DNA of 64,000 nt from Dongia rigui (lineage in GTDB: Bacteria; Pseudomonadota; Alphaproteobacteria; Dongiales; Dongiaceae). Shown one piece after another: positions 28,277 to 34,158 of this stretch. Location: positions 1 to 64,000 of the forward strand of contig NZ_JAXCLX010000004.1 of assembly GCF_034044635.1 (NCBI RefSeq). The letters are read 5' to 3'. Below the pieces are notes generated by a model that did not search any database, was not told the DNA's origin, and saw nothing but the letters and a program-made list of their open reading frames with translations. The stretch's first letter is position 1; every line of letters starts with the position of its first letter. Made by a program: the position numbers and the translations under genes.

Positions 28277-29316
28277 TGCAGCACGTCTTCGGTGTTCTCG
28301 GTGGTGAAACGGACCAGCGCCTTGAGCTTCGCCTTGGCTTTGCCGGAATCGAGCGCGTCTGCCGCCAGCGCCAAACCTTGCGGGATGTCGGCGACCTTGC
28401 CGGCCACCAGCAATGCGGCAGCCGCATTGAGGCGGACGATGTCGCGATAGGGGCCGACGACGCCATCGAACAATCCGCGCAGGGCCTCGGCATTCTGACC
28501 CGGATCGCCGCCCTTCAACTCCGCCGCCGTGCTGCGCGACAGGCCGAACTGCTCTGGCGAGATTTCGAATTCGCGCAACTGACCGTCGCGCAATTCGACG
28601 ACATGGGTCGGGCCGGTGGTGGTGATCTCATCGAGGCCGTCACTGCCATGCACCAGCCAGGCGTGCTCGGTGCCGAGGGCGCGCAGGGCATCGGCCATCG
28701 GCGTCAGCCATTGCCGCGAATAGACGCCGATCAATTGGCGCTTGACGCCGGCCGGGTTCGACATCGGCCCCATCAGGTTGAAGATGGTACGCGTGCCAAG
28801 CTCGACCCGGGCAGGGCCGACATGGCGCATGGCGCTGTGGTGCTTCTGCGCCCACAGGAAACTGGTGCCGACCTCGAACAGCGCCGCTTCCAGCACCTTC
28901 ATGTCGGCATCGATATTGACACCGAGCGAGGTGAGGATATCGGCGGCGCCGCTTTTCGAGGAGGCTGCTTTGTTGCCGTGCTTGGCGACAGTGACGCCGC
29001 TGGCGGCACAGACGAAGGCGACCGCGGTCGAGATGTTGAGCGTGCCGGCACCATCGCCGCCGGTACCGCAGACATCAATGGCACCCTGCGGCGCCTGGAT
29101 GCGGGTCATCTTTTCGCGCATCACGCTGACGGCGCCGGTGATCTCGTCGACGGTTTCGCCGCGCACGCGCAGCGCCATCAGGAAGGCGCCGATCTGGGCC
29201 GGCGTCGCTTCGCCGGTCATGATGATGTTGAAGGCCGTCTCGGCTTGTGCGCGCGACAGGGCCTTTCCTTGTGCCACTACGCCGATGAGGGCCTTGAGGT
29301 CGGTTGCGGCGCTCAC
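28273..29316 (-). CDS. trpD: Anthranilate phosphoribosyltransferase
   Basis: A 347-residue protein that starts with GTG at 29316, overlapping the trpG stop as GTGA. A longer frame upstream lies antisense-like within trpG and was not used. The phosphoribosyl-diphosphate loop [18 protein letters not shown] is intact, followed by [17 protein letters not shown] and [11 protein letters not shown]. It transfers phosphoribosyl to anthranilate in tryptophan synthesis. Length is typical and nothing odd was seen. Confidence 0.96.
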
Positions 29317-29924
29317 TGCACGGCCTTCGCACTTGCCGGGGCCTTGAGCTTGTTGAGGCCGGCGGAGGTCAGGAAATTGCCGAGCAGCTTGTGGCCATGC
29401 TCCGAGGCGATGCTTTCGGGATGAAACTGGACGCCGGCAATGGGCAGGGTCTTGTGGGCGAGGCCCATGATGGTGCCGTCTTCGGTCTCTGCCGTGATCT
29501 CGAGATCGGCTGGCAGTGTTTCCCTGTCGACAACCAGCGAGTGGTAGCGGGTCGCCGCGAAATCGTTGGGCAGGTCCTGGAACACGCTCTTGTTGCCATG
29601 ATGCACATGGGACATCTTGCCATGCATCGGCTTGCCGGCGCGAACCACTTTGCCGCCAAAGGCTTGGCCGATCGCCTGGTGGCCCAGGCATACCCCCAGC
29701 ACCGGAATCTTGCCAGCCGCCGTCTTGATGAGGTCGAGGCAGATGCCGGCGCGGTCGGGGTCGCAGGGGCCGGGCGACAGGATGATGCCCTGGGGCGCCT
29801 TTGCCATCACCGCGTCCACCGTGATCTGATCGTTGCGGTAGACTTCGATCTCGGCGCCGAGCTCGCCCAGGTAATGATACAGGTTGTAGGTGAAGCTGTC
29901 GTAATTATCGATTAGTATGAACAT
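29313..29924 (-). CDS. trpG: Anthranilate synthase component II (glutamine amidotransferase)
   Basis: A 203-residue class I glutamine amidotransferase. [20 protein letters not shown] is the classical TrpG/PabA start, [12 protein letters not shown] follows, the nucleophile Cys is in [13 protein letters not shown], and the His/Glu pair is in [14 protein letters not shown]. It supplies ammonia to TrpE and may also serve PabB. A start at 30035 would add residues without family support. Its partner trpE is not adjacent: it lies 4.2 kb away on the same strand, separated by genes on both strands. Confidence 0.95.
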
Positions 29925-30006
29925 CTTAGTAATCCCCGGGCACGGCGTTCGCCGGAGTTTAGCAGGGGTGTTGCTGGAACGGAAGATTCGGAGGCTGAAG
30001 GATCCC

Positions 30007-31893
30007 ATGCGTTGGCAGGGCGTACGTGCGAACATGACGCTGGTTGATGTCCTGCGCCTGCCATGGCTGCTGGCGCCGCTGCTGGTGCTGGGGCTGACCG
30101 GGACCTGGTGGGGCTTGTCGCCACTGAAGCCGGTGCTGGATTACACGGGGCTGGTGCTGGCCGCTGCCGGCGCGATCCAGTTCGGCATCGGTCTGCCGGT
30201 CTATCAACGTGCGCTTGGCAAGCTTATGCGCCTGCGCATCGATAGCGACACGCTGCTCGTCACCGGGGCGAGTGCGGCCTTCGCGCTCAGCCTGTGGCGC
30301 TTCCATCACCTGCCGATGGAAGTCCAAATCGACCAACAATTGGTCATCTGGCGGGATGCGGCGTTCGGCGCCAGCCTCGTCGCGGTCGCCATGCTGGGCG
30401 GCATGATCCTGCGTCAGGCGCGGCGGTCTTCGCTGGTCCCGCTGCCCCGTCCGCCTGCCGGCCGCATCGTGGTGGCGCCAGGCAATCTCATTCCCGCCGA
30501 TGGCGTGGTGGTCGACGGCATCAGCGAGATCCAGGATCCGGTCGGAGCGGACGATGTTTTCCCCATCGTCGTGTCAGCCGGGGCGCGGGTGCATCTGGGT
30601 GCCCGCAATGGCGATGGCACGCTGACGATCGAGGTGCAGCGGCCGGCAGAGGCTGCCGCCGCGCGCCGGGTTGTGACGGCTGACGGATTGCAACGCATCC
30701 TGGACTGGATCGCGCGCGGGACCCTGGGGCTGGTGCTGATCGTCATCGGTGTCCGGCTTTGGCAATGGCAGGAGGCGGGCGATCCCATCGCCGCGTCCTT
30801 GCGCATGCTGTCCCTGGCAGCGCCGCTGGGCCTGGGCTTTGTCATGACAGCGCCGTCCTCGGAAGTGCTTGCGGCGGCACGCCGGCTGGGGCTCGAGATC
30901 CGGGATATCGCCGTGGTTGACCGCTTGCGGCGCATTGGCGGTGTCGTCATCGGGCATCGCGGCGTGCTGGTGCCGGACCGCCTGCGCTTCATCACCGCGA
31001 CGCCGGTCGAGGGCATGGCCGCCACCGACCTGATCCGGCGTGCGGCAGCCGTGGCCGAGCTGGGCTACGATCCCTGGGGCAAGGCGATCCTCGATTTTGC
31101 TGTCGGCTATCGCATGCGGCTCAAGCCGGCCAGGGATTATCACAGCAAGATCGGCGCCGGCATGATGGCCATGACCGAGGGCCAGCAGATCCTGATCGGC
31201 ACGCGCGAATTCCTTGAGGAGCACGGCATCGATTGCACCGCACTGGCGCCGGCGGCGGACAAGGCGCGTGAGCAGGGGCGCCGGCTACGCTGGGTGGGCA
31301 CCGCTCTCCCAGCACGCCAGGTGCTCGGCCTGCTGGTGTTCGGCGCGCCGTCGGTGACGGGGGCTGTCGAGGCTGTGCGCAACCTGGATCGGCTGGGGCT
31401 GGCGACCGCCTGGCTTGCCAATCAAAATGACGCCGGCCATGTGGCCCTGGGCAAGCATCTGAAGATCGGCCGCCTGCTGTCGGATCAGCCCGAAACCGTC
31501 GCCGAGGAACTGCATCGGATGCGGGACGAGAGCGGTGCGCTGCTGGTCGTCGCGGCCGACGCGCCGCCGGCGGGCCTGGCGGCGGAAGATGTCGTACTGC
31601 CGTTCGGCCGGCGCCTGATGGAGCAGACTCCGGACGCCCGCGTGGCGACGACGCGGAATGACCCGCGCGTCATCGTCGACCTGCTGCGGCTGGCCGCGCG
31701 TCACCGGCAATTGGTCCTGGCGAATGCAGCGATCGCCTACATCTCGGCGCTGCTGTTCGCCTTTGCGCCATTCTGGCTGGGGCGACGCACCGATCTTGGC
31801 AGCTATGAGGTCGGCGTCGTCCTTTTCCTGGCGCTGTCCTCGCTCGGCTTGCGTGCCATGCCCACGACCGCTAATGAGGTCGATGAGGAATAG
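30007..31893 (+). CDS. P-type-ATPase-like membrane protein lacking all catalytic motifs (pseudo-ATPase)
   Basis: A 628-residue protein with eight likely membrane helices (about 20-38, 44-62, 84-98, 117-134, 238-256, 263-283, 571-591, 600-617), the layout of a heavy-metal (P1B) pump without N-terminal metal domains. The actuator domain keeps [14 protein letters not shown] (158-171), but the TGE loop reads GADDVFP. The membrane CPx motif is AAPLG (271-275). The phosphorylation loop DKTGT aligns with GHRGV (316-320), the HP motif with DP (355-356), TGDN with ANQN (471-474) and GDGxND with AADAPP (516-521). It therefore should not hydrolyse ATP by the P-type cycle. ATG 30007 follows AAGGA at 29998; a start at 29917 would run into trpG. 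The next gene starts two bases on. Confidence 0.8.
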
Positions 31894-31894
31894 C

Positions 31895-33106
31895 ATGGCA
31901 AAGCGCAAGCAAAAGTCCCGCAAGCGGACACCGGCCGGACGATCGCGACGCAAGGGCGCCGGCGCGGCATGGCGGGGGCTGATCGGATCGCTGGCGGGGG
32001 CTGGCGGCGCACTGCGCAAGGGCACGCTGCTGTTTACTGCGGGCATTGTCCTTGGCCTTGCTATCGGCTTGGCGATAACGCTCCTGGCGCCGGCCTTGCT
32101 GCAGAAACCGCCATCGCCCATGACGGTCGCCGAGGCACCGGCGACGCTGCCCAAATCAACCCCGGCCGCCAGCAAAGCCAAGCCCGCGGCGCAGACCCCC
32201 GCGGTCGCCCCAGATTTTGTCGAGAAGACGCCGGCAACGCCGGTTCCGGCGCCGTCCGCGCCTGCCGACATCCCGGCCCAGGCCGAAGAAGGTGCGCATC
32301 AATCCGCCCCGGATATCGTGTTGCCGGCCGAGGACGACGCGGCGGCGCTGCCCTCGCGCAGCGACAAGGAACCGGCGGCGGCGCAATGGCTCGAGAACTC
32401 GGTCGCGGTCCGGGATCCCGGAAACCGGCCGATGATCACGATCGTGCTCGACGACGTCGGTGTAGCACCTCAGCATGCGGAAATGGCGGTGGCGTTGCCG
32501 GCACCCATCGTCCTCTCCATCATGACTTACGCCAAGAATTCGGCGGCACTGGCGCGCGAGGCGCGGGCAAAGGGGCATGAGATCATGGTCCATATGCCGA
32601 TGCAGCCGGTGAACCCGGCGGTCAATCCCGGACCCAACGCGCTCGATGTCGGCATGGACGGCGACGAATTGCTGCGTCGGATCGTTTGGGGGCTGGGGCG
32701 TTTCAAGGGCTATGTCGGGTTCAACAACCACATGGGCAGCCGTTTCACCCAGGACGCCGCCGGCATGCGCATCGTGCTGCAGGAGGCAAAGCGCCGGGGC
32801 CTGCTGTTCCTCGATTCAAAGACCATCGCCGGCAGCGTGGGTGACAAGCTGGCGGCTGAGATGGGGGTCACCCATATCGCCCGCGACATTTTCCTCGACG
32901 ACGATATGAGCGAGGCGGCGGTGGCGCGGCAGTTGGCGGCGGCAGAGGCGGTGGCCATTCGGCAAGGTTATGCCGTGGCGATCGGGCATCCGCATCCAGG
33001 TACGATTGCCGTCCTGAAGCGCTGGCTGCCTGAGGCCAAGGCGAGAGGCTTTGCTATCGTGCCCTTGACCACCATCATCAAGAAGCGCGAGGGTGTTGCC
33101 GGCTGA
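31895..33106 (+). CDS. Divergent polysaccharide deacetylase family protein (YibQ-like)
   Basis: A 403-residue protein. A very basic N-terminus (MAKRKQKSRKRTPAGRSRRK) precedes one membrane helix at about 45-68 and a Pro/Ala-rich linker to about residue 160. The C-terminal domain belongs to the divergent polysaccharide deacetylase family: ITIVLDDVGVAPQHAEMAV, EIMVHMPMQPVNP, GYVGFNNHMGSRFTQ, LLFLDSKTI and AIGHPHPGTI. It is probably anchored in the inner membrane with the enzyme domain in the periplasm; the substrate is unknown. GAGGA five bases upstream fixes the start. Only one base separates it from the preceding pseudo-ATPase stop. Confidence 0.88.
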   Translation: MAKRKQKSRKRTPAGRSRRKGAGAAWRGLIGSLAGAGGALRKGTLLFTAGIVLGLAIGLAITLLAPALLQKPPSPMTVAEAPATLPKSTPAASKAKPAAQTPAVAPDFVEKTPATPVPAPSAPADIPAQAEEGAHQSAPDIVLPAEDDAAALPSRSDKEPAAAQWLENSVAVRDPGNRPMITIVLDDVGVAPQHAEMAVALPAPIVLSIMTYAKNSAALAREARAKGHEIMVHMPMQPVNPAVNPGPNALDVGMDGDELLRRIVWGLGRFKGYVGFNNHMGSRFTQDAAGMRIVLQEAKRRGLLFLDSKTIAGSVGDKLAAEMGVTHIARDIFLDDDMSEAAVARQLAAAEAVAIRQGYAVAIGHPHPGTIAVLKRWLPEAKARGFAIVPLTTIIKKREGVAG

Positions 33107-33122
33107 AGAAGGAACAGTGCGA

Positions 33123-33623
33123 ATGCAGTTCGACCATGAATATTATCCGGGTGTCGTCGCGGATATCGTTGGTGCCCATGCGCGCTATTATGCCCAGGCA
33201 TGGTCCTTCGGCATGAAATTCGAGGTCAAGGTATCGGCCGATCTCGCCGGATTCGTGCTCAATATGAACCGTGACCGTGACCTGCTGCTGGTCGCCAGAC
33301 GGCCGGACGAACGCTTTCTGGGATCGATCGCCATCGACGGCATCGACCATGCAGGGCGGGGCGCACACCTGCGCTGGTTCATCGTGGCACCGGAAGCGCA
33401 GCGCACGGGGCTTGGCAGGCAATTGCTCGACCGGGCGATCGGCTTTTGCCGCGAGCGCGACTATCGCCACGTCTATCTCTACACCTTTGCCGGGCTGGAC
33501 TCGGCGCGGCGCCTTTATGAGCAGACGGGCTTCACGCTGGGTGAAGAGCAGGACGCCAATACCTGGGGTCGCCCCATGCGCGAGCAGCGCTTTGACCTCA
33601 CGCTTGAACCGGCAGCCGGCTGA
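33123..33623 (+). CDS. GNAT family N-acetyltransferase
   Basis: A 166-residue GNAT protein. The core strand LRWFIVAPEAQRTGLGRQLL contains the acetyl-CoA binding Q-R-T-G-L-G motif, followed by LDSARRLYEQTGFTLGEE. The N-terminal half has a helix-rich region with YYPGVVADIVGAHARYYAQ, found in some regulator-associated acetyltransferases. The ATG at 33123 has AAGGA nine bases upstream; a start at 33093 would overlap the deacetylase gene. It is the third gene of the plus-strand unit starting at 30007. The substrate is unknown. It ends 13 bases from a convergent gene. Confidence 0.85.
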   Translation: MQFDHEYYPGVVADIVGAHARYYAQAWSFGMKFEVKVSADLAGFVLNMNRDRDLLLVARRPDERFLGSIAIDGIDHAGRGAHLRWFIVAPEAQRTGLGRQLLDRAIGFCRERDYRHVYLYTFAGLDSARRLYEQTGFTLGEEQDANTWGRPMREQRFDLTLEPAAG

Positions 33624-33636
33624 ACTTGCGGCCTCC

Positions 33637-34158
33637 TCACTCCGCTTTCTTGCCGTATCCCTTGCCGGTATCGGCCTCGGCGATGTCGTCCGGCCGGGTG
33701 CCGTCGTAATCCTCGATGGCGATACAGCGGTCGACCGTGGTGCCGTCGCTCGACAAGGGAAAAATCGAACCGGAAAAGGTGATCGCATGGCCGAACGTGG
33801 TGGTCAGGATATCCCGTGAGAAAGTTGGTCGCCGCTGGTGGCAGGCGAGCCGGTACTCGGCCGCCAATTCCGCGCGCACGTCGTCGGGGAATTCGGTGAT
33901 CTGATCCAGATAGCGGCCGGTCAATTCGTGGCGGAAGCTGGCGGCCTTCGTGCCGATCAGGCGGTAAAAAACGCGGAATGGGTCATGCTCGATCGAGACG
34001 ACGATCATGTTGGGCAACAGGCCGCGCATTTGGGCCGGGTCGAAGTCAGCCCAAGCCGGCATTGGCCGATCACCACGTTTCTGGTCCCAGATCTGATAGA
34101 AGGCGCGCACCAGCGGGGAAGTCACTTTGTCGAACGGGATGTCGAGTTCGACAATCAT
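33637..34158 (-). CDS. PAS-like domain protein (PAS_5 type)
   Basis: A 173-residue soluble protein. The pattern YQIWDQKRGDRPMPAWADFD, then LLPNMIVVSIEHDPFRVFYR, LIGTKAA and LTGRYLDQI, is that of the alphaproteobacterial PAS-like family often listed as PAS_5 or DUF1488-type regulators; the PAS_5 assignment is from memory. No output domain is attached, so its role is unknown. It follows trpE with a seven-base gap on the same strand and is probably cotranscribed with ppiD and trpE. Confidence 0.75.
   Translation of the reverse strand: MIVELDIPFDKVTSPLVRAFYQIWDQKRGDRPMPAWADFDPAQMRGLLPNMIVVSIEHDPFRVFYRLIGTKAASFRHELTGRYLDQITEFPDDVRAELAAEYRLACHQRRPTFSRDILTTTFGHAITFSGSIFPLSSDGTTVDRCIAIEDYDGTRPDDIAEADTGKGYGKKAE

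Follow-up and report, generated by a model that had tools for sequence, protein, structure and literature searches.

Among kinases and proteases, pseudoenzymes are a familiar phenomenon. In a literature search judged from titles and listings, no bacterial P-type pseudo-ATPase was found. The nearest known parallel is human TMEM94 (ERMA), which has the P-type fold and has lost TGES and GDGxND. One group found no ATPase activity for TMEM94, a P-type fold without TGES (PMC12134183), and in 2026 the protein was defended as a Mg2+ ATPase working through its aspartate (PMC13322241); its status as a pseudo-ATPase is disputed. A second point of reference is SddA of E. coli, through which Gram-negative peptidoglycan deacetylases were first characterised in 2025; the enzyme deacetylates denuded glycan strands (PMC12440217).

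In the window, the whole stretch of 64,000 nucleotides of Dongia rigui DNA that was analysed, a protein of the P1B-ATPase fold, here called pseudo-CopA, is encoded directly upstream of a deacetylase gene of the SddA/YibQ family. The locus comprises the following features.

29313-29921, minus strand: trpG, the divergent neighbour and synteny anchor
29976-29991, plus strand: 16-nt element 5′ of the pseudo-CopA start, from the alignment of six genus loci
30007-31893, plus strand: pseudo-CopA, a P1B-ATPase fold without catalytic or metal-site motifs, 628 aa, from family search, alignment and model
30463-30684, plus strand: degenerate actuator domain, about residues 153-226, with borders judged by eye from the secondary-structure listing of the model
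30547-30555, plus strand: former TGE, now ADD, residues 181-183, from the alignment with intact CopA
30820-30828, plus strand: former CPC metal motif of M4, now APL, residues 272-274, from the alignment
30952-30966, plus strand: former DKTGT phosphorylation loop, now GHRGV, residues 316-320, from the alignment
31870-31893, plus strand: conserved 3′ end, encoding the tail ANEVDEE and the stop, with a Shine-Dalgarno-like GAGGAA for the next gene
31895-33106, plus strand: divergent polysaccharide deacetylase (PF04748, SddA/YibQ type), 403 aa, beginning 1 nt past the pseudo-CopA stop

The pseudo-CopA gene is an open frame of 628 codons that encodes 628 residues, intact over its 1.9 kb as originally predicted. 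A longer reading from the ATG at 29917 is also present; 30007 is the better start, because the DNA before it is conserved at the nucleotide level and not as protein. The third-position GC content of approximately 0.8 is the same as that of the deacetylase gene and trpE, in agreement with the earlier claim that codon use resembles that of the neighbours. The 16-nt element is invariant in the six genus loci aligned (6/6), the seventh (G005) lying outside the alignment, and is possibly a promoter or operator of trpG or of pseudo-CopA. Between the deacetylase gene and trpE lie genes for a GNAT acetyltransferase (33093-33623, plus strand), found in five of the six other genus loci, and for a PAS_5 protein (33637-34158, minus strand), found in three of those six with one further weak match.

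Pseudo-CopA matches the NCBIfam model of heavy-metal P-type ATPases (TIGR01525) with an E-value of 8.3e-26, at a score of 90.9 bits that lies below the curated cut-off of 346.25, and its score of 27.5 against Pfam PF00122 likewise lies below the cut-off of 28.1. In a sequence search of solved structures, copper ATPases are nearest (CopA, PDB entry 3rfu, E=7.9e-15). By these sequence comparisons homology is clear, and the P1B ancestry is not a chance resemblance. The AlphaFold model, computed with 12 orthologues as input, has a mean pLDDT of 82 (70.5-82 across five models) and a pTM of 0.73. It places eight long helices at the positions of the P1B membrane helices, together with A, P and N domains, and its best Foldseek match in the PDB is CopA in the E2P state (4bbj, TMq 0.78); the eight-helix P-type fold with A, N and P domains, as first proposed for this protein, is thereby supported. 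A short form from the g4 group of genomes gives a poor model (pLDDT 55). Judged on sequence and predicted fold, pseudo-CopA is a member of the P1B lineage in its descent and its architecture but is not an active P1B-ATPase, because every defining motif tested is absent.

The motifs were compared in an alignment of the pseudo-CopA orthologues with intact CopA proteins. In the window protein, DKTGT is replaced by GHRGV, the A-domain TGE by ADD, and the CPC of M4 by APL; in the N domain HP reads DP, with the histidine replaced, and in the P domain TGDN reads ANQN and GDGVND reads AADAPP, the last with a shifted gap in the alignment. The replacements listed in the original prediction are correct apart from a single-residue offset: the counterpart of TGE is ADD, and the GAD named there begins one residue earlier. 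Two further losses were absent from that list: the metal ligands YN/FN of M5 are replaced by SA, and the N-terminal CxxC metal-binding domain is gone. The catalytic aspartate is missing from its column in 12 of 12 orthologues, as is the glutamate of TGE, although in the four g4 rows, which lack the A domain, the alignment at TGE is due to chance. Retained are the GxG of the N domain, the glycine of ILGT and the proline of M4; the N-domain glycines are kept throughout the genus and in G012, and the g4 forms have lost both the A domain and GxG. The alignment of intact pumps has 45 rows, of which 44 are intact pumps (the same gene being repeated in some) and one is the G012 pseudo-ATPase. DKTGT is present in 44/44 intact-pump rows, and single patterns fail in three of them (TGE in L026, TGD in L030 and L055). 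In the working Dongia CopA proteins L002, L059, L060 and L063, HP reads HA, with loss of the proline, and the other motifs are intact.

A search of 17 Dongiaceae genomes, with loci read by synteny, places pseudo-CopA between trpG and the deacetylase gene in 12 (7/7 of the genus, the Dongia group; 4/4 of g4; 1/1 of g7). The five orthologues outside the genus are shorter and more diverged, at the same spot. None of the 12 syntenic copies is interrupted, and they are between 76% and 22% identical to the pseudo-CopA of the window; the four g4 copies have lost the A domain and match the profile weakly or not at all. The deacetylase gene adjoins pseudo-CopA in every case (12/12), and the orthologue search proposed with the original prediction thus finds both the loss of the aspartate and the adjacent deacetylase conserved throughout. 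The interval between trpG and the deacetylase gene holds no pseudo-ATPase in G007, G008, G010 and G014, in which the trp-linked deacetylase is present. In G011 the family-genome search gave no pseudo-ATPase match, and the locus read there is a remote deacetylase copy rather than the trp locus. No intact pump was seen at the pseudo-CopA position in the Dongiaceae genomes whose locus was read. A fused pseudo-ATPase was considered for G007 and rejected: the long frame there is of implausible make-up and probably antisense to another frame. A frame of 534 aa on the minus strand of G007, between trpG and the deacetylase gene (L094:7439-9040), has no NCBIfam match at E<=1. A scan of named genomes with the single pseudo-CopA protein found no relative; with the alignment as query it found six loci, two from Dongia mobilis, one from an uncultured Dongia sp., one from a Proteobacteria bacterium and two from Rhodospirillaceae bacteria.

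On the two closest pairs, dN/dS of pseudo-CopA is 0.17 and 0.16, compared with 0.13 and 0.16 for the deacetylase, 0.12 and 0.12 for intact CopA, and 0.05 and 0.04 for TrpE. For more distant pairs the ratio is 0.29-0.47, at dS values approaching saturation. Each of the seven protein regions has a value of 0.04-0.28 in the two close pairs; the lowest values, 0.04 and 0.06, belong to residues 294-325, a stretch of only 32 codons in which dS of the second pair is saturated at 2.25. In a neutral simulation over half the G000-G001 synonymous distance, a mean of 13 stops accumulated and none of 1,000 runs was stop-free. On the low dN/dS and the simulation, a recent pseudogene was rejected. It is therefore well supported that pseudo-CopA has lost its phosphorylation, dephosphorylation, nucleotide and metal sites, has kept its fold and is held by purifying selection. 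A conserved protein whose catalytic residues are lost and which is under purifying selection qualifies, at the level of sequence, as a pseudoenzyme, and the original reading of a maintained pseudoenzyme rather than a decaying gene holds: 12 of 12 copies are open without the aspartate, approximately 13 stops would be expected under neutrality, and the close-pair dN/dS of 0.16-0.17 is far from the value near 1 that had been named as the mark of a recent pseudogene.

The probable origin of pseudo-CopA is visible at the corresponding position of other genomes. Twelve selected loci were read: seven in which the pump and deacetylase genes had already been observed near each other, and five with a deacetylase match but no nearby pump. 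In each of the seven, which come from seven other alphaproteobacterial families, an intact P1B pump precedes that deacetylase gene, within or close to trp genes; the other five have no pump upstream of the deacetylase. A cueR gene lies between pump and deacetylase in six of the seven (three confirmed by profile), and the three locus pumps that were scanned pass the copper-ATPase model TIGR01511. Descent from FixI/CcoI, a first guess from the locus, was rejected on these two grounds. The divergent neighbour detected is trpG in four of the seven pump loci; in L128 and L131 the nearest trp gene detected is trpD, and in L130 trpG lies approximately 6 kb away. In the locus pump L133 no TGD was found by pattern. 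Intact DKTGT motifs at the same locus, which had been named in advance as evidence against the pseudoenzyme, do occur in these other families, but the inactivation inside Dongiaceae stands. Since intact pumps occupy the same locus elsewhere, the likely ancestor is CopA.

A profile of the pseudo-ATPases was also run against 385 genomes of the class, with the best three candidates per genome scored, and gave matches at E<=1e-30 in 200 of them. The best 25 matches outside the family all carry DKTGT, TGE, CPC and GDGxND. By raw count, the 1.5-kb flank contains the deacetylase gene for nine of the top ten and 11 of the best 25 of these matches; the remaining member of the top ten sits close to the end of its contig and is accompanied by cueR. 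In the genome from which the window comes, contig C3 encodes an intact CopA, directly followed by a cueR-like gene whose frame is open as far as its own stop codon. An intact CopA of this related clade is present in six of the seven genus genomes, the copA-cueR pair lying elsewhere than the pseudo-CopA locus. G005, which has the pseudo-ATPase, gave no CopA of that clade and no match to cueR.

In a tree of 47 proteins, from which the four A-domain-less sequences were left out, eight pseudo-ATPases form one clade (support 100/99) on a very long branch. The G012 row is nearest by path to the locus-type CopA proteins; the tree program warns of long branches meeting, the locus-type pumps are not a single clade, and the place of the pseudo-ATPases among the CopA proteins is unsure. 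Pseudo-CopA is probably the copy left behind at the old locus. On the simplest reading, a working copA-cueR pair would have ended up at another site, and the gene remaining at the original locus would have lost its pumping function. Given G005, "moved elsewhere" is not valid for every genome; there the working pair would have been lost later.

The neighbouring deacetylase matches PF04748 with an E-value of 9.9e-77. Its LDD, VHMP and NNHMGS segments align with the metal-site residues of the zinc-bearing structure 2nly, and the DD, H and H metal residues are present; by order, they correspond in type to the residues that E. coli SddA requires (PMC12440217). In 11 of 12 genomes only 1-7 nt separate the pseudo-CopA stop from the deacetylase ATG. 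The final codons of pseudo-CopA contain GAGGAA or a near form, likely the ribosome site for the deacetylase. The 24-base end pattern (31870-31893) is found in eight of 12 loci, in the genus and g4 alike, which is more than the protein body suggests, as the genus and g4 proteins that share it are less than 25% identical. Synonymous constancy is also somewhat raised at this end, where three of eight codons are identical in six genus genomes, against 13 of 155 (Fisher p=0.03). The 1-7-nt spacing and the conserved 3′ end indicate that production of pseudo-CopA is probably coupled to that of the deacetylase.

Probable joint production with a deacetylase that keeps its metal-site residues favours a role as membrane partner or regulator. 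Our leading reading, held tentatively and at slightly less than even confidence, is that pseudo-CopA descended from a deacetylase-linked copper-exporting P1B-ATPase and is now a non-catalytic inner-membrane partner of the deacetylase, which it would position or regulate there. Against a partner role, G007, G008, G010 and G014 keep the deacetylase alone, so the enzyme does not need the pseudo-ATPase. A bacterial copper pump may even have been converted in situ into a membrane subunit that no longer pumps and serves a peptidoglycan deacetylase exclusively, and we advance this with added caution. An unlikely alternative, drawn by analogy with TMEM94, is that the protein would bind or move a lipid, nucleotide or ion without a phosphorylation cycle. 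The retained fold, M4 proline and, in the genus and G012, N-domain glycines are in its favour, and TMEM94, which shares the fold, was described as containing a lipid and binding AMPPCP at micromolar affinity without ATPase activity (PMC12134183); the replaced HP histidine and the g4 forms, which lack the A domain and GxG, speak against it.

Inactive paralogues often regulate their active counterpart, and pseudo-CopA could act on the working CopA, by pairing or copper sensing, with the deacetylase adjacency being historical. This is improbable: an intact CopA of the related clade does occur in six of seven genus genomes, but the copper ligands (CPC, M5 YN, CxxC) are gone, the deacetylase linkage is complete (12/12), and the two proteins occur apart: in G005 the pseudo-ATPase is present and that CopA is missing, whereas G010 and G014 have that CopA but no pseudo-ATPase at the locus. 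The 1-7-nt stop-start gap in 11 of 12 genomes and the Shine-Dalgarno-like last codons with their synonymous conservation would also suit a relic retained chiefly as a coding leader, whose read-through sets transcription and translation of the deacetylase. We rate this just as improbable, as a leader does not need 628 conserved codons, dN/dS is low (0.04-0.28) in all seven regions of both close pairs, and four family genomes have the deacetylase without the pseudo-ATPase. Almost no weight is left for a recent pseudogene or an annotation artefact, as the loss of all motifs and the scores under the family cut-offs might suggest; it is already contradicted by 12 of 12 open copies at identities down to 22% and by the neutral simulation (mean 13 stops, 0/1,000 runs stop-free).

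If the partner reading is true, the pseudo-CopA proteins would be a family of bacterial P-type pseudo-ATPases whose active ancestor can be traced, the fold would have gained a new role, and the family would be a lead on the control of Gram-negative peptidoglycan deacetylases. One locus offers the probable active ancestor in other families, an all-domain form in the genus and an A-domain-less form in g4, so a non-cycling role of the P-type fold can be asked about directly.

Compared with CopA (TIGR01511/TIGR01525), pseudo-CopA shares the fold, the eight helices, the A, P and N domains and the chromosomal position in other Alphaproteobacteria, but lacks DKTGT, TGE, CPC, HP, TGD, GDGxND, the M5 YN and the CxxC domain. 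TMEM94 is eukaryotic, has ten helices and keeps its aspartate (DKQGI), whereas the Dongia protein has lost the aspartate too. The downstream neighbour of pseudo-CopA is of the same family as SddA/YibQ (PF04748); however, sddA of E. coli and most of its homologues are linked to envC (according to PMC12440217), and here the neighbour is a P-type ATPase fold.
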